Assembly: GCF_000003815.2 (NCBI RefSeq)
Contig: NC_049980.1
Coordinates: 32,084,267-32,148,266 of the forward strand
Direction of reading: 5' to 3'
DNA length: 64,000 bases
From: Branchiostoma floridae
Taxonomy: Eukaryota; Chordata; Leptocardii; Amphioxiformes; Branchiostomatidae
The notes under the pieces are model-generated. The model ran no database searches. It had not been told where the DNA came from and saw only the letters and a list, made by a program, of their open reading frames with translations. Position 1 is the stretch's first letter. Each line of letters begins with the position of its first letter. Shown one piece after another: positions 17,401 through 44,400 of this stretch. Both the position numbers and the translations under genes were made by a program.

Positions 17401-20400
17401 ATTTCCTATTTGTTTTCTGTGAGGTTGTACCTTCAGCCATGCCGTTTTCGTTTTCAGTGTATTTCCTCTTTTATGCATTTAAAAAAATGTGAAACTGAAC
17501 TGTCAAAACGATCAAATTGCTATTTATTATGATCTACATCATCTATGCCAAAATGCTGATTATAATTGGCAGAAACGAGCCGTTGTTGCACGCGGAAGGA
17601 GGATACTAAACGATATGGCGGACCGTCTGAGAAGAGAGCTGACCCCAGGTGGCCCAGCAATACGCATCGACACCGACAGCCTCTGTCTGCAAGTCCAGAA
17701 AATCCGTGGAAAGGATCTGGCAGATGATCGATTAAACGACACAGGCGTGAACATTGCCTTTCCCCCTGCTGAAAAACTGTTCAAAGGCTTTGAGCCCATG
17801 TATATTGACGTTAAGGTACGTGACACGTTCTTCTTACACCCTCTTACAACACTCAGCATATTCAACACTTGACGACTGTCGTGTGTTGACAAATAGGTAA
17901 CAAATCTTATCATTATGTGTTTCAAAATATCAATATCAATATGGATTCCGTGAACCTTCTTCTGGCATTGAGCACATTCCTCGCATGTCGTATTTCGTCC
18001 AAATAGACGATACGACATGTAACAAATAGTATAATGTTTGTCAAAATTGCTGCTATATCATTTACATCGTTGACACTAAGTAAACGGTTTCCTGATATGT
18101 TCACATCATATCAACCTTTCTTTGTCTCCAGGTCATCTGTTACCATGACAACCCTTTCACGTGGGGAAACAACTCAAACATCATCAACTCTGGTGTCTAC
18201 GACATCTCTCTGATTCCATTGACCATGTCCCCCGGGGAAATAACAGACACAGAAGAGGATATCCTGATCTCTATCGCCACCAATGGCACCAGTGGAGACT
18301 ACTCTTCCAGTGGACTGGTTCATGAAGTAGATTCCACCGGCAATGGGAGCGTGGTGCACCATGCGTTCAACATCTCAGACGTAGATGATGCTTTCGTCGT
18401 CCAAGTCACTGCGCTGAACAGGAGTTCCAGAATATCCGTGTTCGGGAGAGGAGGAGGCTTGGCCCATAGTAAAAACTGTGAAGTATGTTTGATCTGGCAG
18501 GACTGGAAACCGACTGCCTCCCATCTTGGCGCTCCTGAGTCTCGGTCTGTCATGTTTTTCGTGTCGGGAAAGAATCATACCGGAAAGTATTCTGTTGGAG
18601 TAGAGGTTGCTGGTAAGAATAACTCATATTTGGTACAACATTAATCAAAATAAGCTGAGCTGGTAGATCGGCTGTTGTAGTAAGATCAACTGAAAAAATC
18701 GGAGTGATTAATAGGGTGGCAGAGCTAGTAGGAATAGGTCTGCGGGTGAAACACATTCATCTATAAAAAGTGGGAACGATGGCAGTTACATGACCTGTGT
18801 ATCGTAGAATTGGTATTGTATTATTGTATGCAGAGTAACAATAGGAAGAGGAGACTTCAGCATGTAGAGTGCCCATGACGAACACCCAGAGGACTGAAAC
18901 AACCTGGTCTATGTGGACAATTGGTTACTTTGACAGGATTCTTAATGCTTGTGCCAATGAAAACAATTCTCTAAGGGATCACCACAAAGTGGTTACATTG
19001 GCCAGGTGGTCCTTATGTAGAGGTACTTGTACAGGTTTCACTGTATACATAATTATGTTTTATGGCATTCACATTTCAACGTCTATCTAGGTGTGGACGA
19101 TGTCTACCAAGATGCAGTCGATGACGGCGTACTTCTTGTGGACCCCGATGATCAATCCGGTTTAAGCCTGAATGGGACCCAGTTCTACAGCCTGAAGGTG
19201 CTGCGTCTGAGCTGTCGTTATTGGGCGGAGGACACAGAGAGCTGGCTGTCCAACGGATGCACGGTAAGATTTGATGTAGAGTAAGATCTTTTGGCCATGG
19301 TCATTTGTGTCAATGTTGTCGTTACTTGCACATTCATCGGTTCTGTTGCTTTCGCAACCTAGTAGCCAAACTGTCAGACGTTTCAGATAACATCCACTAT
19401 CTTTCGTCAGTAACACTAAAGAGATTTTGTAGAAACAGGCTTTATACCCTAACTAATATATATGATAGAATGTACAATCCCATCCTCATCAGGAAACGGG
19501 GCATACGCATTGAACTCTCTGGTACTTGTGATTTAGCGCTCAACCAAAAAACTGTCTTAAGCTCATTTGCATATCAATTCATAGTAAGGTATAAAACCCG
19601 TTTCTACCAGATCTTTTCAGCGTCACTGACGAAATATAGTGGATACTATATAAAACGTCCGACTGTTTCCAAAATTATATCCAGCTGCTTGAGTAATCGC
19701 TTTTTGGGGTATCTTTTTACCTGGATGTCTAACCTTCATCGGCGTATGAAGGAATACGTTTCTGATCTTTGCCGCGCTAACCTATACTTTGTTACAGCCT
19801 CTGGGCAACTGGTCATCCGCACTTATAGCCTATAACCGTTAATCCGTAATAGAAATGGTGAAAAAGATCGGGACGCAGGCACTCGTATCAGAAAGAAAGC
19901 GTTTTATTTCATACGAAGGTGACGTTTTCTGAGCAATGGGGTCCTCAGTCATCAGGACACGAGGAGAACCAGAGAAGCGGTCAAAAATTCGAGTCGAGAA
20001 GTCAAACTTTTCATTAACATCTATGTCGTCTCACCAGGTACATCCTTCCTCCACAATAACCAAGACTGTCTGCGCCTGTAATCACATGACAGCATTCGGG
20101 GCTGGCTTTGTCACCGCGCCAAACACGATTGACCTGACCACCGTGTTTGCCAAGTTCGCGGACATAGGGAACAACGCAGGGGTCCTCGCTACCGTGCTGA
20201 CGACATTAGCTCTGTACTTTGTCGGGGTCATCTTTCTAAGGAGAGTGGACAAAGCCGGGATGAAGAAGGTAGGATTATAAAGAAACGCATTGTAAACTCT
20301 CCTCTTAATGAGAAGAGAATGAGACACTAGTATTTTAATTTCATCCAACAGATCAACAGATCTTTCGTAACCATCTAAGACGAAACGAGACAAAATGTAA

Positions 20401-23400
20401 TACACAATTTGAAATACTAGCCAATCATCTAAGTGTCATGATCGGATCTTGCCTGGTGTAATCTGTTGCACCAATAGACGTGTGTCAACGAAGGGCTTTA
20501 TCGTGCTAAATAGTTACCTTTTCTTTGGCAGTTGATTGTCCATAGTCTACCGGACAACCGCTCCACGGACACGTACTATTACAAGATGACAGTATACACC
20601 AGTTACGGCAGAGGGTCTGGAACTAAGTCTAACGTGGCCTATGGTTTAATATTCCAGTCAAAAGCCAAATACAATGTATTTGGGCCTAATACAATGTATT
20701 CCAGGGCCTAATACAATGTATTCCTCAAATACAATGTATTACATCCACTGTATTACTCAAATACAATGTATTACGATTTTCAAATACAATGTATTTCACA
20801 AATACAATGTATTACAGAGGCAAAATACATTGTAGTGAGCCCAATACATTGTAGTGAGCCCAGTACAATGTAGTGAGCCTAATACATTGTAGTGAGCCCA
20901 ATACACTGTAATACACTGTATTGAGTCCAATACACTGTATTGAGTCAAATACATTGTACTGAGTCAATTACATTGTAGTGAGTCAAATACATCGTAGTTA
21001 GTCAAATACACTGTACTGAGTCCTACACAGTGTACTGAGTCCAATACACTGTACAGAGTCGTATACAATGTATTTCAAAGTAAACTACATTACATGCAGT
21101 ACCACTTCCCTCCGCCAGGGATGTAGCACTCCACTTACAAGGGTATCATAGGGGATCTGGGTATCAGTAGACGAACTTGTACTGGCGAAATTCAAAGAAT
21201 GCCACGTGCGACGCCTGCATGCAGATACGACTTTTTTTCTAATTTCATTTTGCATTGCTGAACATTCATAATATACATGAATAACAAATACTTATTTTTC
21301 CCCCATTGACATGGATTTTTGTGTTAGAAAATTTACCAAATGTCTGCTAAGGTACATTGCTGTGGACTTGAATTCGTGTTAAGAGATGATGATTTTAAGA
21401 TAAATCTATCAAAAAACGGAGCAGAATAGTACCATGGCGCATGTGGCATGTCAAAAGAATATAAGCGTGAAATTTGTATCATGATATGGAACAGGAAAAA
21501 GAAGATCCCATCATACTCCAAAATTGCTGTAAGTTGCATGTTCTGCACGTCAAGGAATCATCCAATGATGGCATTATTATGAAAAGGAAAGTCACTTCGG
21601 ATCCTCATTTTATATGACCTATCATTTGTCTGTGCGAAAATATGCTACGTAAATTACGTCATGGGACGTCATGGGTCAGAAACGGAGGAAGACCCCCTAA
21701 ATTTCTGAAAATTAGGACGGCATTTCGCCAAATGATGTCACCTGAGATAATAAGTGATTGGTGAAAAACTGACTTTAAAACTTAAGAAAATCAATTCGTG
21801 AAGTGACCGAGGACACGTCACTCATCTTCCTGGATTTCTCGGCAGACAATTGTTACAAACCACAGTGTACATAAAGTACATATAATCGGCACGTATTCAG
21901 AAATCATTAGTGACCAAAGTAGTATATTACTGAACAAATCCCAGTGGCATACAACATATCCCGCAAACGCAAAATGTACATTGTTCCCCGGTTGTTAAGT
22001 GAGCCTGTTTATGACCAGAAGTTTGACGCTAAACTTTAGAACAATCGCTGTGAACCGAAGTTTTGACATACAGAACATTCGCTGTGAAAGTCAGTAAATA
22101 AGTAGATGTGACCTTTCCGTTGAACAACAAAGGTCTTGCTATGATAACAACGTGCTCGCTATGAATGTAACTTGACAGAAAAGCATCGCCGTAGAAAATA
22201 GTCTTATCTTTCTCGCACCTTCATGCACAGAAATCCGTGTTTCTTGTACCCCTTTCGTATTATATACGATCTTCGGACGTACTTCGCTATCGCAGGAAGG
22301 GCCTTGCGTATTTGACGCCAAAAAACTATCCCTGTTGACGTCACGTTTAAGCGAGGCTCGTGCTATCGACGGTGAATAGATCTATGATGATGTTCCATGA
22401 CCTCATACACGCGGACAAGGTAACACAAAACGTCCCTCAAAAAAGGCAAGAGATCAACAAATGTTGCTTATTTTGTTGTCGAAATCTTTTTAACCAGTGA
22501 ATGGAATGCGCGGGCATAATAGAAATGACACAATACCCAAGGGACCGACAAAAAGTGGCCACTATATACAGGTGGCCCCTCTGTAGAGGTGGCCCCTAAT
22601 ACAGGTTTGACTGTATTTGTAAACAAACGGAAGTCGGGCGAACGTCGCGCGAACGTCTCCCGACGTTTCGTGTAATGTGACAGGGGTATTAACGAGAATA
22701 GGGGAACTTTTATGTGTAAGTTGGGGAATGTCTAAGTCGTTCATCAGTTTCACCCGACAGCTTTCTCCATATCCCCTATCTTGCAATTAGCCTACGGGCA
22801 TGAACTTGCAGATAAACTTATTCATCGTATTAATCTTTCGCAACGTAACATAATCGTATCCGGTTCCCTCCATAAATACTCTTGAATGCGCCATTTTCCT
22901 GAGATTTCATGACCAGGGTACATTATGCACGTAGTCTTATTTCCTTATTTTTCTAATATCGCAGAGTTCTCACGTTTATTTTTACCCGACTTCAAGTGGA
23001 AGCCCGTGAAACAGCGACCATGCCAAGTACCTACCGCTCAGTGTAAACCCTAAGCTTACTACTCTCTTAATGCCAGGGAGACTGCAGAATGCTCCATTCT
23101 TGTTAGGCTGCGCCCTGTATACATGTACCTTTTTACATTTACCTTTTTGACAGATGACTGGATCGAGTCAATTGTGTTCAAGGAATGAAAAGAAGAACGG
23201 TGTGATCTTCTGCGATTTGTCCAGAGAAATTCACACACAAAATCATATCACAACATTGTGTTTAGTAAACTCAAAGTTTCGATAATGTACCTTGTAGATT
23301 GGTCAAATTATATCTGACTGGGAGATTGCAGCGTACCTGCCTAATTCAGTCTAACAAAAAAAAAATAGCGCATGTGACTTGTGGAAAACTCAAGTATCCC

Positions 23401-26400
23401 ATTTCTTTTAATGATTATGCCTAACTGTATACAGTCATTCGCAAAATTACTCAGGATTTTGGGAAAATCATATCCAATCGCTTGCGTCATTGCCATTTAG
23501 CATGTATGTAGTCATTTGAGCTGTCTATATATGCCGACGTCGCTACTATATATCGTACACTTTTCACACCGTAGCACAGATAAAGTCCAAAATGACCCTA
23601 TATATCGGACTAGTGTAGTGTGTTTTGTTCACGCGCAAGAGGAATCGAATAATAGGTCGCCCGAAAAGCTAGAAAAGGACGAAACCTCTTAAGATCTAAT
23701 CTCAAAGCAGATCCTACAATGGCATAAGATAGTACCAAACTGGCCAAAGAGTGTAGTCAGCCAAGAGGTGTACATTTGCCACACCGGTAGCGAAACACAC
23801 TCCTAAGCCGGCTTCACTCCTCTGCCGGCTTTTGATACTATCTAATGCTACCGTAGGATCTGCTTGGAGATTACTGAAGACCTTGAATATAAAGACAGAA
23901 TAGTTTCGTGCAAATAAAACATGAGTGGGAACGGACAAATATTGTAAAACAATTTTCGAAGAGGGCTCTGCGGGACTGATGATAGTATTTTTGTCTTAAT
24001 TGTCATCCGAGACAAGGCACATTTTAAGCCCGAAATAGCTTCACTCGTAGGGCCGATTAAAGGGGCTAACATCCTATACGTCTACTTGATTTGAACCTTT
24101 GTAAGGGTCTTAGTACGTTTTTTTCAGATAATTTTGTTAACATTTTTCCAGGAAAGATTTGATTTTAAAGGCACTCAGGCGGCTTTTCAAAAGACACTAG
24201 AAAATGTTTGAACGTCGCAGGATTCTCCCGTTGGCTGATTTTTCCCATGATGTACAGCACCTGGGAAATACTGTGATTATCGTGCGATATATATACTGGA
24301 TAAGCTATCACAGTACGATTTACGCGACCGGGGCTTAAGGGCATCAACATACAAAAACTTACCATTTAAAAATCTTTATAGTGTCAAAGTTTCCTTATGT
24401 GATGACAAATCAGAAAAAGTGCACATATATTTCTAGCTCACGTTACCTTGTCTTTTAAGTGCAGCTGATGTCAAAAGCTTTCTTGGATATCCAAACTACC
24501 TGCGAATCAAGATTTTAAACCCCTAATAGTTGTAGTCTAGTGAGGCTTGATATAACAGCAACGCCCTTCACTTAAACGCCGTTTCTAACAGAGCCAAGCG
24601 TACTGAAGGTGTTCAGAGCCAGGTTTACTAGTGTATGAAAAGTGTTCAGTGCCAAGGACAGGTATGCTCACCTGGTGGAACGATAGGCATACTTAACTGT
24701 ATCTGGACAGAATGTGCACCAGGGTCAGATGCCTTAACCTTTTTGAATGGTGTTCCGCATCAAGCAGATGTACGTTTAGCTGTGGGTGGATGGTGTTCAG
24801 CACCACATATTTACCTGTGTGGGAGGTGTTCAGCACCAGGGACAGGTTTGTTTACCTGTGTGGATGGGTTTCAGCACCACATATTTACAGGAATGTTAAA
24901 CTGTGCGCGGTGGACAGCACCAGGGGCAGGTGTGTTCACCTGTGTGTGTAGGGTGTTCAGCACCAGGGGCAGGTGTGTTCACCTGTGTGTGGATGGTGTT
25001 CAGCACCAGGGGCAGGTGTGTTCACCTGTCTGTGTGGATGGTGTTCAGCTCCAGGAACACATGTTTACCTGTGTGTGTGGTGTTCAGCACCAGGTGTGTT
25101 AACCTCTGTGTGTGTATGGTGTTCAGCACCAGGGACAGGTATGTTTACCTGTGTGTGAATGGTGTTCACCACCAGGGACAGGTGTGTTTACCTGTGTGAC
25201 CAGGGACAGGTGTGTTTACCTGAGTGGATGGTGTTCAGCACCGGGAAATGTGTCGTTACACCCTTTCTTATGTCAGCCTGAAGACAGATGTGTTAACATT
25301 CTATGCACGGATGGTGTTCAGCACCATTCAGTGCATTTACCTGTGTGGATAATGCGCCAGGGACAGGTGTTCCCTTGTACGGTACAGTACATGAGACAGT
25401 GTCTGTCTGGATGATGTTCAGTACCAGGCAGGGACATTTACTTGTGTGTGGTGTTGACCACCAGGGATAGGTGCATTTACCTGTTGGGATGGAATTTGGC
25501 ACCAGGGATAGGTGTGTTTACCTGTTTTGATGGAATTTAGGACCAGGGATAGGTGTGTTTACCTGTTTTGATGGAATTTGGGACCAGGGATAGGTGTGTT
25601 TACCTGTCTGGATGTTCTTATGTACCAAGGACAGGTATGTTTATTGGTGTGTTGATTACCAAGGAGAGGTACATTTACCTGTGTATACCTGTGTATGAGA
25701 GGTGTTCAGTACCAATGTGTGTTCCAGATACATGTAACCTTGATCATAATGAGTATTGTGGGAATCAAATATCAGTGCAACCAACAAGTACAGTCCGGTA
25801 TCGCTGACAAAAATGGGGTTCTTTATTATGATACAGTTATCTTGCCATCTTCCCTATTTAATGAGGATCATGCTTTACGTCAGCTACCTCAAAATTATGC
25901 ATTGTATTTGAGGGCCAAACTCGTCAGTCTGTTGACACCGTTTTATGTGCACTCCGCATACCCAATACAACACTGTGAGCTGTAAACACTGTATATATCT
26001 TGTCATGCATGCTACAAAATGTAAAACGATATTTACATGTCAAAGCTAACCACAGTGGCTATGCGGGTAAAGAAAACAAACAATATACACTGCTTTGTAC
26101 TTATATTCCTGAAACTTTAGTGAAAGATCTCTGCTTGATAGTGCAATGTTAACACCACCCCTCGCGTCGTTTTGCCGGCCAGCTGAAGCCGTTGCCCGGG
26201 AGTTGGCACGAGGAGCCAGACGCGAGAGGATTTAGGGGATGGGTGGAACCAGTATGCTTACCACCCTACATTTAAGAGTGTAGCAGGTGGAACCTGTGTG
26301 CCTAGCCACTCAAGAGTGCAGCTGCTAAGCTATCACTACCCAGAGCCCCCTAACCCCCACCTCCGTTACCTGAACAGAAAGAAAAATAAAACAGTCAGTT

Positions 26401-29400
26401 TTCAGTATGAGAAGATTCAAATCATCTCTGAACAGACATGAAACTCTGAGTCAGTTAGTCGGTACTACCAGCTTTACAAATGTATCTGCTCCACACACCC
26501 TTATCTTTTCCATAAAGCTGCATATATTGCGATAAAACATTTCAGTACAAGAACCTCAACACCTTTACAGCAACAAAGGCTACAGGAACAGACAAGTATG
26601 TTATTACAAGATTATCATTTTAAGCTGTAAACATGCTTCTATTGGGGGAAAAACATTTACAGCCCTAGTTCTTCAACTATTGGGAAAAAGGTGTTATTGT
26701 AGGATACTTCACAGTCCTAAATTTACTGGGGAAAAAAGAATTCTGTTATTCTTCACTGTACTGAACCTGCATGTATTGGTAAAACAAATAGTATGTTATT
26801 ATAAGAAGCTTCACTGTCCTAACCCTCCATCTATTGGTGGAAAAAAACAAGCCTGTTATTTATAAGAAGCTTTACTTTCTTAAACCTGCATCTATTGGTG
26901 GAAAAACAAGCCTGTTATCATAAGAAGCTTTACTTTCTTAAACCTACATCTATTGGTGGAAAAACAAGCCTGTTATTATAAGAAGCTTCAATGTCTTAAA
27001 CCTGCATCTATTCGTAGAAAAAAAACAAGCCTGTTATCATAAGAAGCTTCTCTGTCCTAAACCTGCATCTATTGGTGGAAAAAAACAAGCCTGTTATCAT
27101 AAGAAGCTTCTCTGTCCTAAACCTGCATCTATTGGTGGAAAAAAACAAGACTGTTATCATAAGAAGCTTCACTGTCCTAACCCTCCAATCTATTGGTAAA
27201 AAAACAAGTCTGTTATTATAAAAAGCTTCACTGTCCTAAACCTGCATCTANNNNNNNNNNNNNNNNNNNNNNNNNNNNNNNNNNNNNNNNNNNNNNNNNN
27301 NNNNNNNNNNNNNNNNNNNNNNNNNNNNNNNNNNNNNNNNNNNNNNNNNNNNNNNNNNNNNNNNNNNNNNNNNNNNNNNNNNNNNNNNNNNNNNNNNNNN
27401 NNNNNNNNNNNNNNNNNNNNNNNNNNNNNNNNNNNNNNNNNNNNNNNNNNNNNNNNNNNNNNNNNNNNNNNNNNNNNNNNNNNNNNNNNNNNNNNNNNNN
27501 NNNNNNNNNNNNNNNNNNNNNNNNNNNNNNNNNNNNNNNNNNNNNNNNNNNNNNNNNNNNNNNNNNNNNNNNNNNNNNNNNNNNNNNNNNNNNNNNNNNN
27601 NNNNNNNNNNNNNNNNNNNNNNNNNNNNNNNNNNNNNNNNNNNNNNNNNNNNNNNNNNNNNNNNNNNNNNNNNNNNNNNNNNNNNNNNNGGGGAAAAATC
27701 ATTACAAGTTTCCCTAAGCAAGCCTTAAAAATCTATCACATACAAATGATACCATTACCTATAGCTAAATGGCAGTCTAGAGACAGACTGGCAATGCAGT
27801 AAAAACATGTCATACACCCTGACTGAAAAATCAATGGCACATGCATTACCTATAGCTAAATGGCACAGTCTAGAGACAGACTGGCAATGCAGTAAAAACA
27901 TGTCATACACCCTGACTGAAAAATCAATGGCACATGCATTACCTATAGCTAAATGGCACAGTCTAGAGACAGACTGGCAATGCAATATAAACATGTCATA
28001 CACCCTGACTGAAAATCAATGGCACATCATTACCTATAGCTAAATGGCACAGTCTAGAGACAGACTGGCATTGCAATATAAACATGTCATACACCCTGAC
28101 TGAAAATCAATGGCACATGCATTACACCTATAGCTAAATGGCACAGTCTAGAGACAGACTGGCAATGCTAATAAAAACATGTCATACACCCTGACTGAAA
28201 ATCAATGGCACATGCATTACCTATAGCTAAATGGCACAGTCTAGAGACAGACTGGCAATGCAGTAAAAACATGTCATACACCCTGACTGAAAATCAATGG
28301 CACATGCATTACCTATAGCTAAATGGCACAGTCTAGAGACAGACTGGCAATGCAGTAAAAACATGTCATACACCCTGACTGAAAATCAATGGCACATGCA
28401 TTACCTATAGCTAAATGGCACAGTCTAGAGACAGACTGGCAATGCAGTAAAAACATGTCATACACCCTGACTGAAAATCAATGGCACATCATTACCTATA
28501 GCTAAATGGCACAGTCTAGAGACAGACTGGCAATGCAATAAAAACATGTCATACACCCTGACTGAAAATCAATGGCACATGCATTACCTATAGCTAAATG
28601 GCACAGTCTAGAGACAGACTGGCAATGCAGTAAAAACATGTCATACACCCTGACTGAAAATCAATGGCACATGCATTACCTATAGCTAAATGGCACAGTC
28701 TAGAGACAGACTGGCAATGCAATAAAAACATGTCATACACCCTGACTGAAAATCAATGGCACATGCATTACCTATAGCTAAATGGCACAGTCTAGAGACA
28801 GACTGGCAATGCAGTAAAAACATGTCATACACCCTGACTGAAAATCAATGGCACATGCATTACCTATAGCTAAATGGCACAGTCTAGAGACAGACTGGCA
28901 ATGCAGTAAAAACATGAAATACACCCTGACTGAAAAATCAATGGCACATGCATTACCTATAGCTAAATGGCACAGTCTAGAGACAGACTATCCTCCCACG
29001 GAAAATTTAGCTGTAATTTGGTTGTATTACAGGGCAAGTAACAAACGTTACCGTTAACGTTTGTTACAACAGTAAACTTTATGCTTTTTCTGAAATGATT
29101 AACATTATTTGTTACAATAATTTGATATAAGTGGACATGCCTGGGGACATTAAAAAAGTTGGCAGCATGTTTACACCAGGTCTGATAGAAAGCTTAGAAA
29201 GCATTGAACATTGGTAACGTTTTTTAGTCATTTCTATACGACATTTTATTAAGCAATATCAGATACAAATGGCAATGAGTGAATGACCCATTCTTGTTCT
29301 TTAGAAAGCCAGAAAAACTGTAAAGCGTCACAAAAACCTCAATTTCTAGTCTTATAGTGGATAATATAACGGTGAAACATGGCATAAACCACCTCACACA

Positions 29401-32400
29401 GCCAAGATCAGTGACGGGAGTGATCTGACATGATCAGTCAGAGGGCTTGGGTAGCTGGTTTCAACTGCCGAACAATCATTCTGGGAACTGAATTGTTACA
29501 TTTATGGCTACTATTTGAATTATTCGTTTCTTCTCAGACTGAATACTTTTTAGCTGGGTTTGGAAAATGTGGATGATTTGTTGACTACAGAATGGTGATG
29601 GATGATGAATCATTGATTTCCAGAATTTTGTTTCCTTTCCAAAATCATCAGAAACCAGATATTGGGGGTGTGATCACATCCATGTAGTCACCCTGGGGCT
29701 TGTGGTGTAATCTTCACTTCCAAGTTTCATTCCATTTGCTCCTCCACCTTGGGGCCTCATTGGCCGCTGGCTGTGGATAAAGAAATTGATATTTCAGTAA
29801 TAAAGTAATTAATACCATTCCTTCACATTAGAAGATCAATTAACATTAGAAGATCAATCCTGAAGTGGTAAGCCTTTCTTTTACTATTGCAGCATTTAGG
29901 GCCAATTTACAAAAGGCACTGTGCACCACAGTGGCCTAGGACAGTTTTCATGTTACTAAAAATTTTACACCGACCAATTGGGACTCTGGCTGAGCGCCAC
30001 AGCACAGAGAACAAGTGCTGTTTTCCACCAAACAAATGATGACTTTCTCCTCTTCTTAGTCAGTGAGTCACACATACTCATGATACTGGTGATAACACCC
30101 ATATTTAATACATAGAAATTAGAAAAGTCATGCAAAACAATCACTTAAAATTAAATACACATTTACCTACATTTCAAACCTCAAGTACCACCACTTTTGG
30201 TTAAAAAGCTGGAGTTCAACTCCAACATTTTAACTACCTACAGCCAAACGAATGTCATGATACTAGGATTTTACCCCGTCCTAATGGATTATCCACTCTG
30301 TCAAGGTAGCACAACACAGTATTTATGCACGACCCACGGGGGTCCATGACGTGGGTACATAAACTTTTAAAAGTAGTACAGATAAACTTGTTGAAGGAGA
30401 GTTTAAACAAGCCTTATTTGAGGTGCAGACAGATATAACCTGTGCTGTGTGGTCACTGAAGGTGTTGACTCTGAGACTGTATGGTTTGAAATAGATGCAT
30501 GTGCACCCAGGTGCACCAAAAATTGGAGCTTTATAGTACNNNNNNNNNNNNNNNNNNNNNNNNNNNNNNNNNNNNNNNNNNNNNNNNNNNNNNNNNNNNN
30601 NNNNNNNNNNNNNNNNNNNNNNNNNNNNNNNNNNNNNNNACATACTAGAGCATGCTGACTTTTCAGATGAACTTACCCATATAGCATAACTGGCAATCTT
30701 TAGCCAAGATATATAGAAATAGAGTTGCATAAATTACTTTTGCACTTACTTCTTATACTATTTCTGTGCCTTATGAAAACACCCCACTTTGCTTTATTCA
30801 ATATAATTACAATACATGTACACACCCAAAATCCTTGCACCCCATCTTGTACTCTGTGAGCCTACTACTAAAGGAAAAAAAGGTAGGGTAAGACCCAGGG
30901 TGACCTACTTAACGTAGACAACCTACGTAGTGACACAAGTCTGCATGATACAAGCTACAAAGGGCCAAAGAGCTACAAAGGGCCATGGTGGACCAAGTGC
31001 ATTGGAGGAGCCTTTACGGATTGGTTCGAGCGGGAGTAAGTACATGTTCATTGTTTGAATACATAGGGAAACATCATAGACTTTGTTGTAAGAAAATTCG
31101 AACACTATCACATTTTGAAATTTCCCTAGACTACCTTTGTAGGATTAATTGGAAGGAGTTGAAATCAACTTTTTCAGACATGACCTGGTCCCTTTTCAGT
31201 GTGACACTGATAAAATTTATGCATCTGAAGTTTCTGGACAAATTATGCAACACAATCACTATGTTTCAAGAGCAGCAGCTATGTTTCTCCAAGATTAAAT
31301 GATTTGAGTCTTTCCTTCCAGCTAGGAGATTGCTTGGGCATTCTCACCCTGCTACAATTCTACCTGACACCACTCTTAACTTACAGAGCACAAAATGGGA
31401 ATACGGTTTGGGTGTGACCTAAAATCCTTGAAAACCTTCTTTTCCATGAAAATTTTTGCCCGATCTGGAGACTTTTTGAGTTAGAAGGGACAGGTAGGGT
31501 CTAACTCTAAGCTTTCTAAGCTTGGGTCAAAATTTGTTCAGTTCAGCACTTTAGCTGGTGTCAGGACAGGTTTTAGTCATAGGGTGCTACGGGTCATATC
31601 AGGAGGGAACAGGGGTCAAAGGCAAGGTTTCTTTCATAGAACATGCTTTTCTAGACCAAAGTAACTTTCTGGTGGAGAAGAATTTTTAAGACTGAATTTG
31701 AAAAATGGGTCAGTGCTTTTTTAAGCCTTCATTCAGTATATCATAAGTTATAACATGCTTTCCAATGGGCAGCCCTAACTGACCTGCACCTTGAACAGCT
31801 GCTTGGCATGTCATTATATCTCACAATCAGCTGTAAGTTGCTAGATAAACATCTGCTTGCAGAAATTTCAGGCACCACAGATCTACAAAAGTCAACGACT
31901 GTTCCACATTCCTAAAAAAGTAGGGGTGTTTACGGAAATATTACAGACAGCAGAAAAGTTTGCTGTTTTGGCGAGGCAGTCTTACAATGGGCAGCCCTAA
32001 CTGACCTGCACCTTGAACAGCTGCTTGGCATGTCATTATATCTCACAATCAGCTGTAAGTTGCTAGATAAACATCTGCTTGCAGAAATTTCAGGCACCAC
32101 AGATCTACAAAAGTCAACGACTGTTCCACATTCCTAAAAAAGTAGGGGTGTTTACGGAAATATTACAGACAGCAGAAAAGTTTGCTGCTTTGGCGAGGCA
32201 GTCTTACCACGAACTCAAACCCACCGCGAACATTTTTCATTACAGTATTTGACGGTTTTGTGACCAGAATGTATGGCACTATCGCGAACTCAAAACCACC
32301 AAGAACACTCCACTTTCCGGCTAACATGAAATTAAATCCCAGCGAACTTACATGCATTTACAGTAAATTTCGGTGAAAACAAAATAACATGCAATACCAC

Positions 32401-35400
32401 GCAGGTCCAGAATAATCATGGGCCAAAGTACATAATGATTCGACAAACTCCTGCTTAAACTTCAATTCCATTCCAAAAANNNNNNNNNNNNNNNNNNNNN
32501 NNNNNNNNNNNNNNNNNNNNNNNNNNNNNNNNNNNNNNNNNNNNNNNNNNNNNNNNNNNNNNNNNNNNNNNNNNNNNNNNNNNNNNNCACTTTACCCCTA
32601 ACTTTGAACCCCCGCTGCAGTACTGGAATTTGCTGCCAGGATGTCTGCATGTTATCAAACCTGACCTTAATTTTTCCGACTCCTACCCATCAATTATCAT
32701 GCGGGATCAGCCAAAGCTTCTTGAGTTATGTTGTCTGCAAACAAACACACAAACATACACGGCCTACAGAAAGTTTTTAATGACCTTTCATTCCATCAGG
32801 AAGGTCCATTTACAGCATCTCAAGTTATGTTCTGGACCTACATATACACACAAACACACACATAACCCACATACATGGCACAACCAAAAACATTATCTTC
32901 TTGGTGAAGATAAAAATATCATGTTATGCTGTTTACAGACAGACACACACAGACATACAACCTTCTTGGCAAATGTAAAGAGACCTGCAACATTCACATA
33001 ACCAACATTTCGTTAACTTATAGAGGTACAGCAGCCAGTCTTTCTTGAATTATTTGGACATCTATGTTACATGTTTCAATACTTTCGTGTACTCCAACTA
33101 AAGCTTCCACATCCAAACAACAACAATTAGTGATTCTCCCCCCGACTCCCACCACTAGCATGCGATAATCGCAAGCAGATGTCACCGATGGCGGGAAGTT
33201 GTTTGCGTGGCCACAGAGGGGAGTCTAACGGAGTCTTCTCTCTTCTGCTACAATAATCTATGCAAATCTCATTTTAAAAGAAACATTATGACGTACAAGG
33301 GATTCCTTAAACCGTCCACAATTTCTGGTATCAAGTTCAACTACTTGAAGGCCTTGAAGTGGTAACATGTTGACGTTGTCGTTACACATTGTAGACCATT
33401 TTCTGCTTACCACTATCATTTTTCCCCACTCTCAGAACGCATACAACTTTACAAGCAATCAAATGATCTCAAATATGACGAAAAAACATACGTAAGCGAT
33501 GCAATGTTGTTCAGTATTCACATCTAGACACGGGGACTCACTTGAAGGGCCCACAACACAACGATACACACCGCATGGGTACGGGATATTTATTTTCTTC
33601 TTCTTTCACGTCATGGAAATATTGACACGATAAGTTGAGTTTCTAGGTAAAAATAATTTTGGATAACTTGCCGGGATCAATACCTTCCATGGCCTGATTC
33701 TAAAGTATCGTATATGGAAAGTGTTTCTTCTGTTTGTTCAGCATAGTGACGCCATCTTGGAGTTGGACCATCATCGTTCCGATAAAATAACCTTGCCTAG
33801 GAAACAAACAGGATAATCGTCGTGTGAAGTATCTATTATAAATAAAGAGCAACTTACCCCCTGATATTACACGTTCCCTTTGGTCTCAGCCCTGGTGTCT
33901 TCCGATCAAAGCCGCATTCGTCAGCCACCAAAGTAACTTTCTGGACGGTTTGTACCTACCGTTTGCCTCCTTGAAAAGTTGTGTGGTATTTTGATGTGGG
34001 GGCAGTGGTTGGCCACGAGTCACGTGATAGTCCCTTGGAGAGTGACGTTTCATGGAGTCATGGAGCCTGTGACTGATTAGTGTCACCAGTCTAATCTCCA
34101 AGCAGATACGGTGGCCATAAGATAGTATCATAACTTGGTATCATAACTGGCTAAGGAGTGTAGCCAGACAATGGGTGCACATTTACCACGTAGGTGTGCA
34201 TGTGGCAAATGTTAGCCTCCACCAGGCCTTCTTATCCTATGGCGGTACGGGCTACACTCCTCGGTTATCACCAGTCAGCGAGAATAGTGAAAATAGATAG
34301 TCTCAACTAGGCCCTATGACTATACATGAGTCCCCATATGGGGACACGGGCAAGCCATGGGTAGACGCCTCAACAGTTGACTTGGCACTTCTGGGTCAAA
34401 GCATCTGNNNNNNNNNNNNNNNNNNNNNNNNNNNNNNNNNNNNNNNNNNNNNNNNNNNNNNNNNNNNNNNNNNNNNNNNNNNNNNNNNNNNNNNNNNNNN
34501 NNNNNNNNNNNNNNNNNNNNNNNNNNNNNNNNNNNNNNNNNNNNNNNNNNNNNNNNNNNNNNNNNNNNNNNCATTTATAAGCTGGGGAGTTTCATTGGCC
34601 CCGCGGTCTCCAATTTTTTATTTATTTATTGAGGTTCTCCACATACATAGACAATGGAGGGTATGGCGGAAAAGGCGTCGGCAATGAAACTCCTCTGCCG
34701 GCTAAACTGCTTCCCCAGATTATGATACTATCTTATGCCACCGCAAGGTCTGCTTGGAGATTAGCCTTCCTATGGGGGTGGGGGATGGTAGAATTCGCGA
34801 TCGGCCAACAACAAAAGTCGGGAGATTTGCCAGGGGGATACCTGTTCCCCATCTGCGCATCCGACCCACTCCTCTGGTAGCAAAACTCCCCTGGCAAATC
34901 ATTCTCCCTCTCCTTCCATGTTATTGTAGTCAGTTTGGTAGAGACTAAACGCTGCAAGACTGACTACACTGTTTTACTCTATCTGTTTGCAATTTGCCCT
35001 CGGAAATGAACTTGCAATTAAGATTATTATCATAGGGAGAATAATTTGCCAGGGGAGTTTTGCTACCAGGGAGGTTGGCCGGCCACGGATGCTAAACCTT
35101 AGCGCAGACTGATTCCCCGGGCCAATGATCTATTCTTCATCTTATAGATATAGATCTTTAGAGGTTTCGTCCTTTTCTGGGATCTTGCAAGTTCCCCAGC
35201 TGGTGACCTATATTCTTCGACGATTCCTCGTGTAACTGAACAGAACACACTACAGTAAACGGACCGGGATTTCTCCTGTTTAGTTTGTGTGCTACTGTAT
35301 GAAAAGTAAACGATAGCATCGTCGGCATACATACACCTTACATTGTTATATACTAGTCCCTACCAGACTGACTACTAGCTTTTACTATTGGGAGAATAAT

Positions 35401-38400
35401 TCACCAGGGGAGTTTTGCTACCAGAGGAGCTGGTCGACCGCGCAGCTCCAGAGGGGAAGTAACTCCCCGGCCAATTTCACGATTTTTGCCGAATTCTACG
35501 TTCCCTTTATCCCCGTAGGAAGGCCTGGTGGAGGCTAGCTATGTGCAGTGATGAATGTAAGGGTAGTGAATAGGACACATCAAATAGCAATAGCGCAAGC
35601 AACTGGATATAATTTTCTCCACTTTGGCGTATAACTGTGTACTTTTTTATTGCAACATGAAGATATACTAAAACGGCACCACTGGACAAAACATGGTACA
35701 TATAACAGAAAACACATAGACGGGAACGTCAAATGTACAGGAACGGAGGTGGACAGTTAAAATATAGCAAAAGAACAAAAAAGTGACATTGGTTTTGAGA
35801 AAAAAAATGGTAGAAAAATACAATATAGAAATGACATCCTAGATAGTCCGTTTTAAAAGTCTAGTTTCAAGTAAGTATTCCTCAGTTATGGCAAGAATTT
35901 GAGTGTTAATTTTTTACGACATTAACAGTGAACATTTGAGTAAAACGTACACAATAGCGCTGTCAGATAAGGTTTTAACATCTAACACATGAAATGTTCA
36001 AACTTCCAAGTCTGTTGAGGAGGCATGTGCGTTGAATGGGCAGTTTGGGCAGTGAAGCAAATAATGATCATGAATGCTTTCGCATCGGCACCCGCGCAGC
36101 TGCAAGAAGGACTCGTATTAAAACCGTATTGTATTATACGTTACGACTATGGTTTAAGCTGCAGGAGCCGATGCGAAAACGAGTATCAAACAAGAGTTCG
36201 TAGCCCTCAGGCCTGCATGAAATGTATTGGGTGTCTGTAGACCTATTGTGTATTTTTTTTCTTTTTCGTCCCTGGTTTCGAAAGTGAGATTTTTACCGTG
36301 TTGGTTGTGCACCATGCAAAAGTCTGAAATTCCATTATCGGAATGTGTAAGTTTGGGCATGGATGAACATTATCTATTTTGGATTTCTTAAGCATGTAAC
36401 CAACCACAGTACCTTAAATCATTGAGACGACTTTTCCTACCTTTTTTTGTCTCAGATGGCCCATGTAGTTATTCTGTCACATATGATATATTCAGTACTG
36501 ATATCTTCCTATTTCAATGTACTGACCTGATGCAGCTGCTAAATCTCCTTATTGTACCAATGATATTCATTAAAGATTTATTTCTGGAGTGTTATATCAC
36601 TTGACACTCGAAGGTTATTTGCATAATTTGACAAATTATATTTTCGCAGTAGTTCCATAGACAATATGAATAGTGGTAGCCCCATCCAGCAGCATTAGGG
36701 TGGTATGATATTTTATTCAATCCGTCCAACTAAAACCTAAATCTCTTGAAGTACCTACCGTAAGCCAAATTTTACAGCAGAATTTACTATTCGAAATGTC
36801 CTTGTCAGTCCCATTCATAGATGGCAAGCTGCTGGCAACATTAAAAAGTTCAGAAAGCTGTTGTAGTCAGAGTGAACACCCAGCAAACATCCCCCAAAAT
36901 CAATGAGCAGTTGCTTACAGGGGGAAATTTCATCATATTTTTGCAGTGACAAAATGCAACAAAAGATACCAAATTTAAAACAGAACAAGGCCTCTACCAC
37001 TTAACCCTGCCCTTAACGGCATGTCGTGATGGTTTTAGTTTTCCCTGATATTGTCGATGTTGACGAAAAGGGAAACTACATCAGTCGCAATTGCCACAGT
37101 AGCAACCAGAAAACAGCGCTCCCTCAGAGGAGCCTGCCTTCAAGGCAATATTTTGCACGTGGCAGATTTAGTATCACGCACAGGTGATGCAGACGATTGC
37201 TTGATCGCTACATGCACGTGAGTTCATAATTAGATGAAATCTCAGCTCTTGTCGGCCCCGGGTCAGTTTACCATAATCATAATAACCATAGGGACAAGTC
37301 GAACAGAAAGGCAGGCTCTAAATATATGTGATATAATGCTTATGATATGATTTTTGTTGACAGCATATCATAATACGATCTTCGAAAAAGCCTGACTCAT
37401 AGAGCCGGCAAGCAGACCGAGATAACCATACCAGTTATGCTTCATTTGAACCTTTGCTTGTACATGTAATACTCATGTTGTCACGGTCTCTTTTGATATA
37501 TTTTTACAGTGAAAAATATCATAGAAAAGTATTCAACAGCTACGTCCACGTTTGGTTGGATAAAGAAACGCAAAAGCGGTCATGCGGCTATTCAGAAGAG
37601 ACACAAGTGAAAAATCGTACGACGCTGGAAAAATTTTGAACATCATCCGATACGTTGCGATGGCTGATTTTGCTTACGATTTTGCTGCGATTTACTGCGC
37701 TCATCGTACGATATGCGGAATACTCCATCGCAAGGAATCGTACGCGCTTTGTGACCGGGGCTTAAGCTTGAGTCTCCGACGGAGAGGTACTGTTGGCTCG
37801 GACAGGGCAGATCTAAGAGAGAATAAAAGTCACTAAAGCTAGGGGCACAACCCGCCGCACTTGCAAATACGTGCTGTCTACGTGCCAAAACGTGGGCAAT
37901 CTTTTGGTGTCCGTAAGTGGTAAGTACCGTCTCCGTACGAGCTCGTAGGGAATTCGACGGATTTGGGAGCACGCAGACACTCCGTAGAAATTTAAGTGCA
38001 TGCAGAACTTTCTCTGCGTTCGGGCTGCGGATTCGCCCGCCGTACGTGCCAGTACGGGCGACGCGCCTGCCCTGTACAGCCAATGAGCGCACAACGCACT
38101 GGCTCCGTGAGTGTATTAAAGTTTTCTCACAGTCAATTGCTGTACGGACGGCGCACCTAGCACGTGTGTGATGCGCACGTGGTGATTGCGTGTTGGGTGC
38201 TTACTCCGCGCTTCACTTGTTCACCTGTGAAGGCCGACGCACAACACACCTGCACTGTAACGAGGGAGCAGGTGCTCCGCACGTACAACGTACTTGGCAA
38301 GCACATGGTTTCTGCAGTATATAAAGCCGAGTCGACGAAGGACTGCCAACCCGTCTCCAAGATGCGTAAGAAGACGCAGAAGGTAGTTGCATCTGTAGCA

Positions 38401-41400
38401 GCTTCGACCAGAGCCGCCCAAAAGAAAGACCAAGCTTGAAAGGTCGTCCTATATATATACATCCCCCAAAAACTTATGTTCATCGTACTTGAACGCACTT
38501 ACACCATGCGAGTGAGTAAGGAAACCGTACGTAAGCAGCACGCGTAAGTAGGGACTACATACGTTAACGTGGCAATCGCACAGAGACCGTACGTTGTAAG
38601 CACGTGCAACTCACCTACCACTTGCTCAACGAACGATGAATGCAACCGCTCTCAGCCAGGCGTGGCGTGCAGATCACGTACATACACCTTGCGCAACCGT
38701 GCGAGTGACGTGCGTTGACTTACTCCCTCCCTGCTCTTGCCAGTCGTTCCCCACGTTTTCAGGAATACGTGGCGGACGTGGCCTCCACAAAAAACGTACG
38801 GACAAATTGCACGTACGGCGGGTTGTGCCCCAGGCTTAACAACGTATGGACGACTCGAGTCATTCTTAACAGCTCGTCAGATTTCGCGCGAATGTACGCT
38901 TTCCTTTTGTTTTTTTGTTCTGTTTGGGTGCCAAGTAAAGCCCCGGTCACAAGAATCGTACGACGTCCTTGCGATGGCATATTCCGCATATCGCACGATG
39001 ATCGCCGCGAATCGCAGCTAAATCGCAAGCAAAATCAGCCATCGCAGAGCATGGTGTTCAAAATTTTTCCAGCGTTGTACGATTTTTCACTCGTGTCCCT
39101 CCTGAATAGCCGCCTGACCGCTTTTGTGCTTCTTTAACCAACCAAATGTGGACCTAGCTCTTGAATACCTTCCTATAATGTCTTTCACGGTAAAAACAAA
39201 TCAAAAGAAACCATAACAACATGATTCTTACAAACAAAGGTTCAAATCTTGCCTTCTTGCCGGCTCTACGAGTCAGACTTTTTCGAAAATCATATTTCGC
39301 TTTTTTGTTATGATATGCTATCAAGAAAACATTCCTTCAGACAAAAATAAGGGTGTGGTCACAAAGGTGCAAAAATCGGTCGGACGACGAGTTTGCGAGC
39401 TCTAAATGACATTTTCGGCAGTAATTCGTCCAGTGTTTTCTCGATCCGCGCGATTTTTAGGAGTCGTCCGATGCTCGCTGTGCACCAAAACTTGTTCTAA
39501 CATCAGCTACTAGTCGCCGGTGATGTTTGAGGTCGCAGAGCTTTGAAAGTTTGAGGTGTCGGGCGAGTAGAGACCGACTTATTGATCGTTGGTCGCAAAT
39601 CGGATGACATACTCCCGTTGGTCGGAAGACTTTCGCCTGACTCCCGGTTGTTTGCAAATGCAGACTTTGTTTTATCTAGCAAGTAATTCTGTCATTGTGG
39701 CTCCTGTCTTATTAGTATGAGGGCTGTGTTTATCACACAATTCTTGTGGTTATGGTTAAAAACATCTCCACAACTTAAGCCTCGGTCACAAAGCGCGTAC
39801 GATTTGCTGCGATGGAGGTTTTATGCGCGGTATATAAGCGCAGTACGTCGTAAGTCGGGAAAGAATCGGAAGCAATGGTTTAAATGTATAAAACCGTGGT
39901 CACAAAGATCGTAGGACATCGTACGATAAGGTCTTAAGTGCGTAACGATTGAAGACCGATTTCACCTCCAAAAATCAGGCGATTCTCGCTAAAACTGAGA
40001 CGGTCCGCAGGATCTAGGAGTATCGCACAAAACTGGCAACCTTCCTCCACATTTTGCTCTTGTGCAAAGTCAGTGAAGTCGGGCGTGTTTCCTACGAGCA
40101 TCCTGCTTGTGTCGGGGAATGTTCTACGAGCTTGGGTCGAGGTCCTGTCAATTGGTCCTGTCATTAATTTTGTACCTGACTGAAACATGACCCATGCTTT
40201 CTGAATTATTCTTTCCATGAGGACCTTCTTCTTTTCCTTGCCCTTGTAGTCAGGTTGACCCGTAGTACAGAGGGTTCGCCTCAAAGAAATCTGCTATGGC
40301 GTTTTCCACTTTGTACGCTTGTCCGTCATGTTTTTCCTCATCTTTCTTCTCACCATCATCATATTCTCGGGCTTCTTAGTCTCCGGAGCCACGCTCTCCT
40401 GACACTTTTGTCTTGGTAACTTTTTTGTCCTTCTTTCTCGGCGTCATCTTTCACTCTATACACACATGCGTAGGGGCTTCAGAGGTGTGGTATTCAGGGC
40501 ATCTGTCCAAGTGCAACTATGCTCAATCATTTCCCAGGTGATAGGCGAGCACAGACCTACTTATTGATCATCGACCGCAAATCGGATGGCGAACGCTCAT
40601 CAGTCGGGTGACGTTCGCCCGACTTCCGCTTGTTTGCAAGTATTGGCTTTTATGAAACGTGAGGGTAATTCTGACATTGTGGCCCCTGTGGTAGTATGTA
40701 GGCTTGCTTTTGACACATTTCTTTTCTTTCATCGTTTCTATTATGCCCGCGCACCCCATTTATGGCTTTAAAATATTCCTACGACAAAAGAATCAACATC
40801 TAGTGATCTTTTGTCTTTTTGCGAGGAACGTTTTGTGTTACCTTGTCCGCGTGCAAGAGGTAATGGGAGGTTCAAATAATTATTCACAGGCGATCGCACG
40901 AGCCTCTCTTATATGTGACAGGGACAGTTATGGGGTGAAAAATACGCACGGCCATGTGAAGATGTTCAAATTGACCGACCTTCAAGCGATGAAGTGAAGT
41001 ATGTCCAAAGCTCGTACATCATGTGGCAGGGGTATTAAGAAGCACAAAGAGTTCAGGTGACTATTCAGGAAGAGGCACGAGTGGAAAATCGTACGACGCT
41101 GGAAATCTTTTAACATCATCCGATGCTCAGCTGCGATGGCTGATTTTGATTACGATTTTGTTTCGATTCACTGCGCTCATCGTGCGATATGCGGAATCGC
41201 AAGGACGTAGCATGCGCTTTGTGACCAGGGCTTATACCCCCGTTACATTACGTGAAAATCATTCGGACGACGATTCTGCGAGCTTTAAGTTAAACGACAT
41301 TTTCGCGAGTAAGACGTCTGATGTTCTCACGATCATCCTGCGATTTTTCGGGATCGCCGGCGATTTTCAGGGGTCGTACGATGGTCGCGATGCAGCGAAA

Positions 41401-44400
41401 CATGTTCTTAATATAAGCGACAAATCGCAGGAGAGCTCTGAGATCGCATAGCTCGTTACCGAGTCGCAGATCGTGCGTGCAAATCGTGCGACCTCGCAAG
41501 GGTATCGGTCGACATTCGATTAATAGTCGTGAGTCAATCCAGCACAGATCTAGTTATTAATCATCGAGCGCAAATCGAATGGCGAACGCCCGTCAGTCGG
41601 GCGACGTTCGCCCGACTTCCGTTTGTTTACAAATATTGAATTTCTGGGAATGTGAGGGTATTGTGGCCCCTGTGGTAGTATGTAGGTTGGCTTTGTGACG
41701 CACTTTCCTTTCTTGTGTCATTTCTATTATGCCCGCGCATTCCATTCACTGGTTAAAACGATTACGACAACAAAAGATTTATTCACAGACGATCGCACGA
41801 GCCTCGCTTAAATGTGACGTCAACAGGGATATTTTGGCGTCAAATACGCAAGGCCCTTCCTGCGATCACGAAGTACGCCCGAAGATCGTATATAATATGA
41901 CAGGGGTAAAAGACACACGGATTTCTGTGCATGAAGGTGCGAGGAAGATAACACTATTTTCTACGGCGATGTTTTTCTGTCAAGTTACAACGTTTTCATA
42001 GCGAGCACGTTGTTATCATAGGGAGACCTTTGTTGTTCAACGGAAATGTCACATCTACTTATTTACTGACTTTCACAGCGAATGTTCTGTATGTCATAAC
42101 TTCTGTTCACAGCGATTGTTCTAAAGTTTAGCGTCAAACTTCTGGTCATAAACAGGCTCACTTAACAACCTGGGAACCCTGTACATTTTGCGTTTGCGGG
42201 ATATGTTGTCTGCCACTGGGATTTGGTCACTGTAATGATTTCTGAATACGTGACGATTATATGTTCATTGTGTACACTGTGGTTTGTAACAATTGTCTGC
42301 CGACAAATCCAGGAAGATGAGTGACGTGTCCTCGAGCGGCCTCGGTCACTTCACAAATGGATTTTCTTTAGTTTTAAAGTCAGTTTTTCATCAATCAGGT
42401 GACATCATTGGGCGAAATGCCGTCCGATCATATTTTCAGAAATTTAGGGGGTCCTCCTCCGATTCTGGCCCATGACGTCCCATGACGTAATTTACGTAGC
42501 ATATTTACGCACAGGCACATGATAGGTCATATAAAATGAGGATCCGAAGTGACTTCCCTTTTCATAACAATGCATAATTCCTTGACGTGTAGAATATGCA
42601 ACGTATAGCAATTCTGCAGTATAATGCGATCTTATTTTTCCTGTTTCATGTCATGATACAAATTTCACGATAATACACTTTTGAGACATGCCACATGCGC
42701 CATGGTACTATTCTGCTCCGTTTTTTAATAGATTTATTTTCGCAAAATCTTCACACGAATTCAGGTCCACGGCAATGTACCTTAGCAGACATTTTGTACA
42801 TTTTCTAACACAAAAATCCATGTCAATGGGGCGAAATAAGCATTTGTTGGTCCCTGTATTTTATGGATGTTCAGCAATACAACATGAAATTAGAAAAAAA
42901 ACTCGAAACGTATCTGCGTGCAGGCGTCGAACGTGGCATTCTTCGAATTTCGCCAAGTTCGTCTACTGATACCAAGATCCCCTATGATACCCTTGTAATA
43001 TTGAGTAAGCGGAGTGCTACATCCCTGGCGGAGGGAAGTGGTACTGCATGTAATGTAGTTTACTTTGAAGTACATTGTATACGACTCTGTACAGTGTATT
43101 GGACTCAGTACACTGTGTAGGACTCAGTACAGTGTATTGGACATACTACAATGTATTTGACTAACTACGATGTATTTGACTCACTACAATGTAATTGACC
43201 CAGTACAATGTATTTGACTCAATACAATGTATTGGACTCAGTACAGTGTATTGGACTCACTACATTGTATTGGGCTCACTACAATGTATTGGCCTCACTA
43301 CAATGTATTGGCCTCACTACAATGTATTTTGCCGCTGTATGTAATACATTGTATTTGTGAAATACATTGTAGTTGAACGTGTAATACATTGTATTTGAGT
43401 AATACAGTGGATGTAATACATTGTATTTGAGGAATACATTGTATTAGGCCCTGGAATACATTGTATTAGGCCCAAATACATTGTATTTGGCTTTTGACTG
43501 GAATATTAAACCATACGTGGCCTTCTCATTGTTTGGAGACAAAGGGAGTACTGGAGTTAGGGTGTTCAAGCAAGGCCCGGAGGTAAGGCTTCAACATAAC
43601 GTACACATTGCTATGTTGTTTGTTGATTATATTGTTTGACCCTAGCTAGACGTGGTTGCTAAGACATTTTTCTTGATTTACATCACATGGAACGGTCTTT
43701 TTTATCAGTTTTTTCCTTGTTATTGACCACGGAGCGAATGAGGTACTAAGGTCAGAATATGTCAAGATGACGAAGGAATATGTTGAAGAATTACACAGTA
43801 GTGACGACATCTCTAAGCTTTGTGTGTACCCTGACATTCTGCGTATCATTCGATAGTTGAGCATATTTAAGCTGGCCCTTAACTAAATTATATTACAGTA
43901 AATTCAAAGCCATCAACTATTTATACGCTTAAGCGTTTACCATTATCTACCTTAGACCTTCCAGGCTGGTGGCGTGGATATCTTCTTGATGGCTGTAGAA
44001 GAAAGTCTGGGTGATCTTCATCGACTTCAGATCTGGCACGACAACCAGGGCGGCGACGACAGGGCCTGGAAGCTAGATAAAGTCATCGTGCGGGATCTGC
44101 AGTCAGGAGACACGTGAGTACAATTGAGATATGATTTATGTTTTCGAGAGCAGTTTTCAATAACGTTTACGGAATGCATTATTTGCACGTACAAATTAGA
44201 AATAATGAAAATAACATTTTTACCTGTTCAGTCCATGTAATCTTCAAGTACAGGTCAAAACTGTACAAGTGATCACCTCAACACTCAATGTGATCATGTT
44301 CGGTGGTCCCTTAGTTAATATTTTCCATTGATGACACAAGCATTATTAAGAATCCCGCCCTAGGTGACCACCTGTCCGTATGGACCAGATTTTGTCGGTC

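Follow-up and report, generated by a model that had tools for sequence, protein, structure and literature searches.

Introduction

The closest described relatives of the element reported here are the IS3EU transposons (with GingerRoot), whose families have TA..TA ends and usually make 6-bp target-site duplications (PMC10045372); fungal IS3EU families end TAYGG..CCRTA (PMC12730594). Non-autonomous families are common in this group, with 17 of 45 Repbase families being autonomous according to the figures quoted in PMC10045372. We analyzed a stretch of 64,000 nucleotides from the lancelet Branchiostoma floridae (the window; C2:32084267-32148266 in a 513-Mb assembly of 431 contigs), in which a 22.9-kb element interrupts the first PLAT exon of a polycystin-1-like gene. 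We consider this element to be a giant non-autonomous IS3EU-type (integrase-like DDE) transposon of recent insertion, with a probability of roughly 0.8. Its ends, TATGG...CCATA, fall within the fungal pattern, 4 of the 5 end pairs described below are flanked by 6-bp duplications, and a relative on C10 bears an integrase-like DDE transposase. It differs from described IS3EU elements in its size (about 22-24 kb without a recognisable protein), its 1.7-kb arms of foldback-like structure and their phased arrays of dyads, the 7-bp duplication of the window copy and the existence of a 47.5-kb transposase-bearing relative.

Other groups share some of these properties. Among foldback elements, Galileo makes duplications of 7 bp and Drosophila FB of 9 bp. 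Polintons (Mavericks) are on a scale of 15-20 kb, with long terminal inverted repeats (TIRs), genes for PolB, integrase, ATPase, protease and capsid, and AG ends. They make 6-bp duplications as seen here, but no polymerase, ATPase, protease or capsid domain was found in the six frames of the window copy, and its ends are TATGG. Foldback elements (FB, Tetris, Galileo) have the same kilobase inverted arms with tandem repeats around a variable, protein-less middle; they differ in that the C10 relative has an integrase-type transposase, the element here is much longer and its family's duplications are 6-7 bp, compared to 8-10 bp for Tetris (TIRs up to 1,735 bp; PMC4079207). Mutator-like elements (MULEs) and Pack-MULEs likewise have long TIRs and are able to carry non-transposon DNA, but neither their 8-11-bp duplications (PMC6446971; 8-9 bp for Muta1, PMC5225508) nor a MULE transposase was found here. 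Dada elements share duplications of 6-7 bp and insert in small-RNA genes, Dada-U6 and Dada-U1 having no TIRs (PMC3706591), whereas the window element targets a protein-coding exon and has kilobase inverted repeats.

In the portions of the literature available to us, we found no description of this element family under IS3EU and Branchiostoma, and no work combining amphioxus, transposable elements and foldback; the term IS3EU does not occur in the available main text of a review of giant transposons (PMC6431247). The family may already carry a name in Repbase. The combination of IS3EU-type ends and duplication, foldback-like arms, giant size and no recognisable protein appears to be new.

Results

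The ends of the element and its target-site duplication

The features of the insertion are as follows, with the strand given where one applies.

20532..20639, + strand: 5' part of the PLAT exon, including the left target duplication (open frame, acceptor, tblastn of lancelet homologues P0001, P0002 and P0005)
20633..20639: left target-site duplication, CGTGGCC
20640..43515: whole element, TATGG...CCATA, 22,876 bp with 811 undetermined bases (N)
20640..22383, + strand: left arm (TIR), its first 135 bases including the T identical to the right arm
20668..21074, + strand: left-arm dyad array, 19 copies of the 13-bp AATACAWTGTATT at 2 mismatches or fewer
41775..43515, - strand: right arm (TIR)
43069..43487, - strand: right-arm dyad array, 19 copies at 2 mismatches or fewer
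43516..43522: right target-site duplication, CGTGGCC
43523..43582, + strand: 3' part of the PLAT exon, followed by the donor GTAAGG

An earlier note on this DNA had proposed a transposon with 134 identical terminal bases on its inverted arms, a 9-bp duplication and borders known to the base. Alignment confirmed the arms, with 134 identical bases running inward in inverted orientation from 20641 and 43514, and ACGTGGCCT is indeed present as a 9-base direct repeat at both raw borders (20632-20640 and 43515-43523). The borders, however, were one base off. The base just outside ATGG is T at 16 of 16 exact-motif loci (from the 20 loci printed, L001-L020, the window's own ends being two of the 16). 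We assign this T to the element because it is constant while the next base outward varies. T20640 and A43515 thus belong to the element, and the duplication is reduced to the 7 bp CGTGGCC, the raw repeat consisting of this duplication plus one matching base per side. Among the other four printed loci, both C10 ends start TATGG, and the right end of the copy on C19 has the matching A. The window holds two matches to the 24-base tip at 3 mismatches or fewer, against none in 100 shuffles; the ends gave 0 exact matches in viral contigs. The length of the element is approximate because four assembly gaps lie within it (one of exactly 100 N, 30540-30639); the gap-free sequence adjoining the ends extends over 6.6 kb on the left and 8.9 kb on the right.

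The two arms (20641-22383 and 41775-43514; 1.74 kb) align over about 1,797 columns with 88% identity overall, or 93.4% (1574/1686) if only substitutions are counted, with 18 gap events. These long inverted arms with internal tandem repeats are the structure of a foldback element, and the foldback label of the earlier note therefore holds as a description of shape, but not as a class, given the 6-bp duplications of other copies. The dyad AATACAWTGTATT occurs 19 times per arm, compared to 6 occurrences in the rest of the 64 kb (2 mismatches or fewer), with a spacing of mostly 18-23 bp and runs at exactly 19 bp. Extra transposase sites have been reported in the arms of Galileo (PMC4079207), and by analogy we suggest that the phased arm dyads are putative transposase sites.

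The interrupted polycystin-1-like gene

The two exon halves rejoin as one open frame of 168 bp with phase 0 at both ends, between an acceptor (AG/TTG) at 20532 and a donor (GAG/GTAAGG) at 43583. Together with the next exon, the joined exon gives a PLAT match with an E-value of 2.1e-12, while the read-through from the exon into the element has no match and ends at a stop at 20709. The alignment to human polycystin-1 is ungapped across the junction, and the same is true of 7 of 7 lancelet homologues (P0001-P0007, taken from 13 database matches to a hand-joined gene model; the records are from B. floridae, B. floridae x japonicum, B. floridae x belcheri and B. lanceolatum), in which the protein is uninterrupted. 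The insertion into a continuous PLAT exon that the earlier note had proposed is thus borne out, and the empty site it expected is present in the homologues at the level of protein. No stop was found in the 14 exon stretches checked (13 plus the left half of the split exon), and no tblastn match of P0001-P0007 revealed pieces of the polycystin gene captured in the element. The remainder of the gene lies on either side of the insertion.

17573..20271, + strand: upstream exons (extracellular region; sub-threshold GPS match, E=0.0049)
43956..49756, + strand: downstream exons (second PLAT exon, polycystin domain, channel)

Other copies in the genome

A search of the genome with the 134-base end gave at least 17 ends at 96-100% identity, as well as weaker matches (20 candidates scored). 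At least four inward-facing pairs can be formed from them: the window copy (22.9 kb), two copies on C5 (C5a, 23.9 kb, and C5b, 16.8 kb) and one on C19 (22.5 kb). The remaining ends among the matches listed are nine single ones, and a diverged end pair (79% over end positions 11-107) lies on C10, 47.5 kb apart. With the terminal T counted as element, the duplications are exact and of 6 bp each: CGAACT for C5a, GTCACG for C5b, AAACCG for C19 and GATAGC for C10. Further loci with these ends thus exist, as the earlier note had anticipated, but with 6-bp rather than 9-bp flanks.

The C19 copy, in inverted orientation, is collinear with the window element from one end to the other wherever the two align. 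The two interiors differ at 58 of 12,371 aligned bases (of 19,391, the rest being gap or unaligned), and the arms at 38/1,720 (left) and 30/1,734 (right) aligned bases. The interior divergence of 0.47% is several-fold below lancelet heterozygosity (3.2-4.2%; PMC12500494), and for this reason the latest transposition was probably young. Within the window element, the left and right arms diverge by 6.6%, compared to 2.2% between the left arms of the C2 and C19 copies, indicating that the two arms were already distinct before the latest moves. We also observed that the arms of the C2 and C19 copies are about 4-fold more divergent than their interiors (2.2% and 1.7% vs. 0.47%), a pattern that sequence exchange between the arms of different copies might produce.

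The C5a copy is also collinear, with 565 differences over 12,394 aligned interior bases (36187-38934 being among the unaligned stretches). A copy on C199 matches window positions 22166-27204 at 94.4%, and one on C11 is collinear in the parts read, ending at window position 42894. When the central segment 33000-34200 was used to search the genome (40 of 268 candidates scored), seven matches exceeded 400 bases, including the window itself, and each of these had a listed end no more than 19 kb away; the remaining 33 were short and fell on one sub-repeat. As for the single ends, no mate was found in the C199 and C7 stretches, and the C15 stretch (L040) gave no match; the sequence is N in C6a, the contig stops first in C301, a gap lies just inside the end in C8 and C6b matches over only about 270 bases. 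By eye, the 278-462-residue open reading frames (ORFs) of C5b (C5:9536663-9553484; L034, L035) resemble a nested long interspersed nuclear element (LINE) reverse transcriptase, and ORFs of 667, 511 and 248 residues near the single end on C8 (C8:1926000-1931000; L046) are LINE-like.

A transposase-bearing relative on C10

The C10 relative (C10:3777429-3824901; L018, L019, L042-L045) measures 47,473 bp, was read except for about 5 kb near its right end, and is flanked by a perfect 6-bp duplication. Its ends, TATGGCGG...CCGCCATA, bear dyads and are of the same kind as those of the window element, and its subterminal DNA shares about 77% identity with that of the window element over 784 aligned positions. 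One of its frames encodes an integrase core domain (PF24764, E=4.7e-52; sub-threshold rve match, 0.0087). It also has further ORFs, some of them built of tandem repeats.

A connection between this transposase and the interior of the window element comes from P0029 (B. belcheri Bbelb_330740), a gene model of the same transposase family. Residues 1-93, 169-186 and 177-251 of P0029 match C10, and the stretch between the first two of these pieces matches window 38743-38633 (E 2.8e-9) and 38110-37862 (E 1.7e-4). This window DNA is probably the remnant of a transposase-gene intron in a copy that has no exons. P0029 itself, as annotated, seems to be a chimaeric protein that combines exons of the transposase with intron DNA from such an element.

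Twenty transposase queries against the window and L001-L041 gave nothing besides the P0029 stretch (in the window, L036 and L039) and C10. Eight 5-kb stretches taken from within single-ended copies, one stretch consisting of N throughout, gave only a 24-residue match to the same P0029 stretch, in C6b. These searches covered 8 of the 9 single-ended copies in part, C6a being N beyond its end, and loci other than L054-L057.

Coding potential of the interior

A six-frame Pfam scan of 20641-43514 gave no family at an E-value of 0.5 or below, and no MULE domain. The same method applied to the flanks recovered PLAT, polycystin, channel and sub-threshold GPS matches, although long X-laden frames are less sensitive in such scans than single ORFs. 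Together with the transposase queries, this agrees with the earlier note that the window copy has no recognisable transposase. Scanned alone, the ORF at 37646-38200 has no Pfam match, and two right-hand ORFs joined together have no relative. Interior ORF numbers do not exceed those of 200 first-order resamples of the sequence (P 0.08 to 0.47). Scores per codon range from 0.09 to -0.22 for interior ORFs of at least 80 codons vs. 0.26 to -0.02 for the gene exons, which were scored on their own training set. We rejected hidden protein genes in the interior on the basis of the empty Pfam scans, the ORF numbers and the mostly lower codon scores.

Alternative explanations

A Mutator-superfamily or classical foldback element with 9-bp duplications would account for the 9-base repeat at the raw borders, and its long arms and tandem repeats would be like those of Tetris. 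The end motif and duplication lengths led us to reject this class, for which we see a very slim chance: the T is terminal at all 16 exact-motif ends, four other end pairs (one of them the diverged C10 pair) have 6-bp duplications, the MULE domain is missing from the six frames and the transposase of the C10 relative is an integrase-core protein. In addition, a published survey of MULEs reports that the presence of a MULE transposase could not be confirmed for B. floridae (PMC6446971). That the PLAT exon contains a long conventional intron is the least credible possibility of all, although the interruption falls in a coding exon and every other exon checked has an open frame. In none of the 11 printed registers could a GT..AG intron be removed, and the sequence recurs elsewhere with duplications of its own, on which grounds this explanation too was rejected; the uninterrupted protein in the seven lancelet homologues and human polycystin-1 points the same way, but is not by itself contrary to an intron.

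The minisatellite-rich interior without proteins, and the iteration of inner-arm blocks on the right side, could also be explained by a composite macrotransposon, in which two shorter foldback elements captured and moved the host DNA between them. This is quite unlikely in view of the collinear interiors of the C19 and C5a copies and of parts of the C199 and C11 copies, and of the central segment, for which nothing longer than about 105 bases was found outside such elements among the matches scored (40 of 268 candidates); an old capture preceding amplification remains compatible with these data. An assembly artefact joining ends of different elements or haplotypes across the four gaps might be suspected from the 811 N inside the element and the gap of exactly 100 N. 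Its chances are slimmer than those of a Mutator or foldback class, since the flanks share one duplication and rebuild one exon matching seven homologues, and the C19 copy, though itself gapped, has the same order end to end in its aligned parts.

Several observations weigh against an IS3EU-type transposon inserted at this site. The window copy has a 7-bp rather than a 6-bp duplication, and C5b, unlike C5a, C19 and C10, is compatible with 8 bp as well (AGTCACGT). The right end of the C19 copy is degenerate, and L020, a 67-base fragment, has C instead of T before ATGG. No transposase was found in copies with the window's own ends, among the parts tested, and the PF24764 transposase of C10 is only a candidate IS3EU protein. 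The frame at 30949-31299 (+ strand, 117 residues), scanned alone, gave a MOM1-like Pfam match (E=0.005, 17.1 bits vs. a cut-off of 27), one that was absent from the six-frame scans of long stretches. Lastly, the empty site is known from protein only, and was not seen as DNA.

Proposed mechanism and significance

For an IS3EU-type element, we propose that a transposase of the kind found in the C10 relative would bind the phased dyad arrays of the arms and, once bound, would pair the element ends, so that the 23-kb unit would then move in trans. The window allele would yield a polycystin truncated at the stop at 20709 or, if the 168-bp phase-0 exon were skipped, one lacking 56 PLAT residues in a frame that would be preserved. 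The insertion would be so young that it could still be segregating.

In a chordate, a stretch of about 23 kb in which no protein is recognisable appears to have transposed as a single unit, and to have done so very recently on at least one occasion. The size limit of the cargo that an integrase-type transposase could mobilise in trans can thus be put to the test, and the insertion provides a gene disruption known to the base. The locus also illustrates how the direct repeat read at raw borders may put a transposon in the wrong class, which only comparison with other copies can settle.

Repeats of the interior and mir-2060

The interior contains the following repeats.

24716..25684, + strand: minisatellite of 41-43-bp units, with three mir-2060 matches above the gathering score
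26751..27250: 58-bp tandem array, which stops at an assembly gap
27753..28989: 92-bp tandem array, 13.4 copies, 97% matches
37352..39329: nested inverted repeat (37352-37770 / 38932-39329), parts of which match C10 subterminal DNA and the probable intron stretch of P0029
40536..41925: diverged iterated copies of inner-arm sequence

The three matches to mir-2060 (RF03662) above the gathering cut-off are the only ones in the window, and all lie in the element array, at 24774-25193. Of 11 further loci scanned (loci other than L032, L033 and L036), two gave matches, namely C5a (L031, three) and C19 (L038, two), while nine, C5b and C10 pieces included, gave none. Small-RNA libraries of B. belcheri are reported to contain a mature bbe-miR-2060c-3p (PMC5650284). 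The window array has two sites with two mismatches to this sequence, and a third site of this kind, at 58294-58313 (- strand), falls outside the element. The fold z-scores of the three matches (-2.41, -1.53 and -0.60) indicate modest hairpin stability; it is consequently as likely that a tandem repeat contributes to a microRNA locus, or has been taken for one, as that a real gene is present. From the positions of these matches, part of the lancelet mir-2060 family may be transposon-borne, which suggests that an annotated microRNA family sits at least partly inside a mobile element. One could go further and imagine that the interior of about 19 kb is kept for function, with small-RNA-forming mir-2060 arrays as the payload, a family spread and tuned in copy number by the transposon, and arms that serve as multivalent transposase traps, but we regard this as improbable.

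Two other repeats were observed. An 84-bp piece of a 17-bp minisatellite inside the element, at 22532-22615, is 96-98% identical to 57854-57937 and 58034-58117 outside it, and window positions 57199-57452 consist of a 7-bp unit, TAAGATT, in 36 perfect copies.

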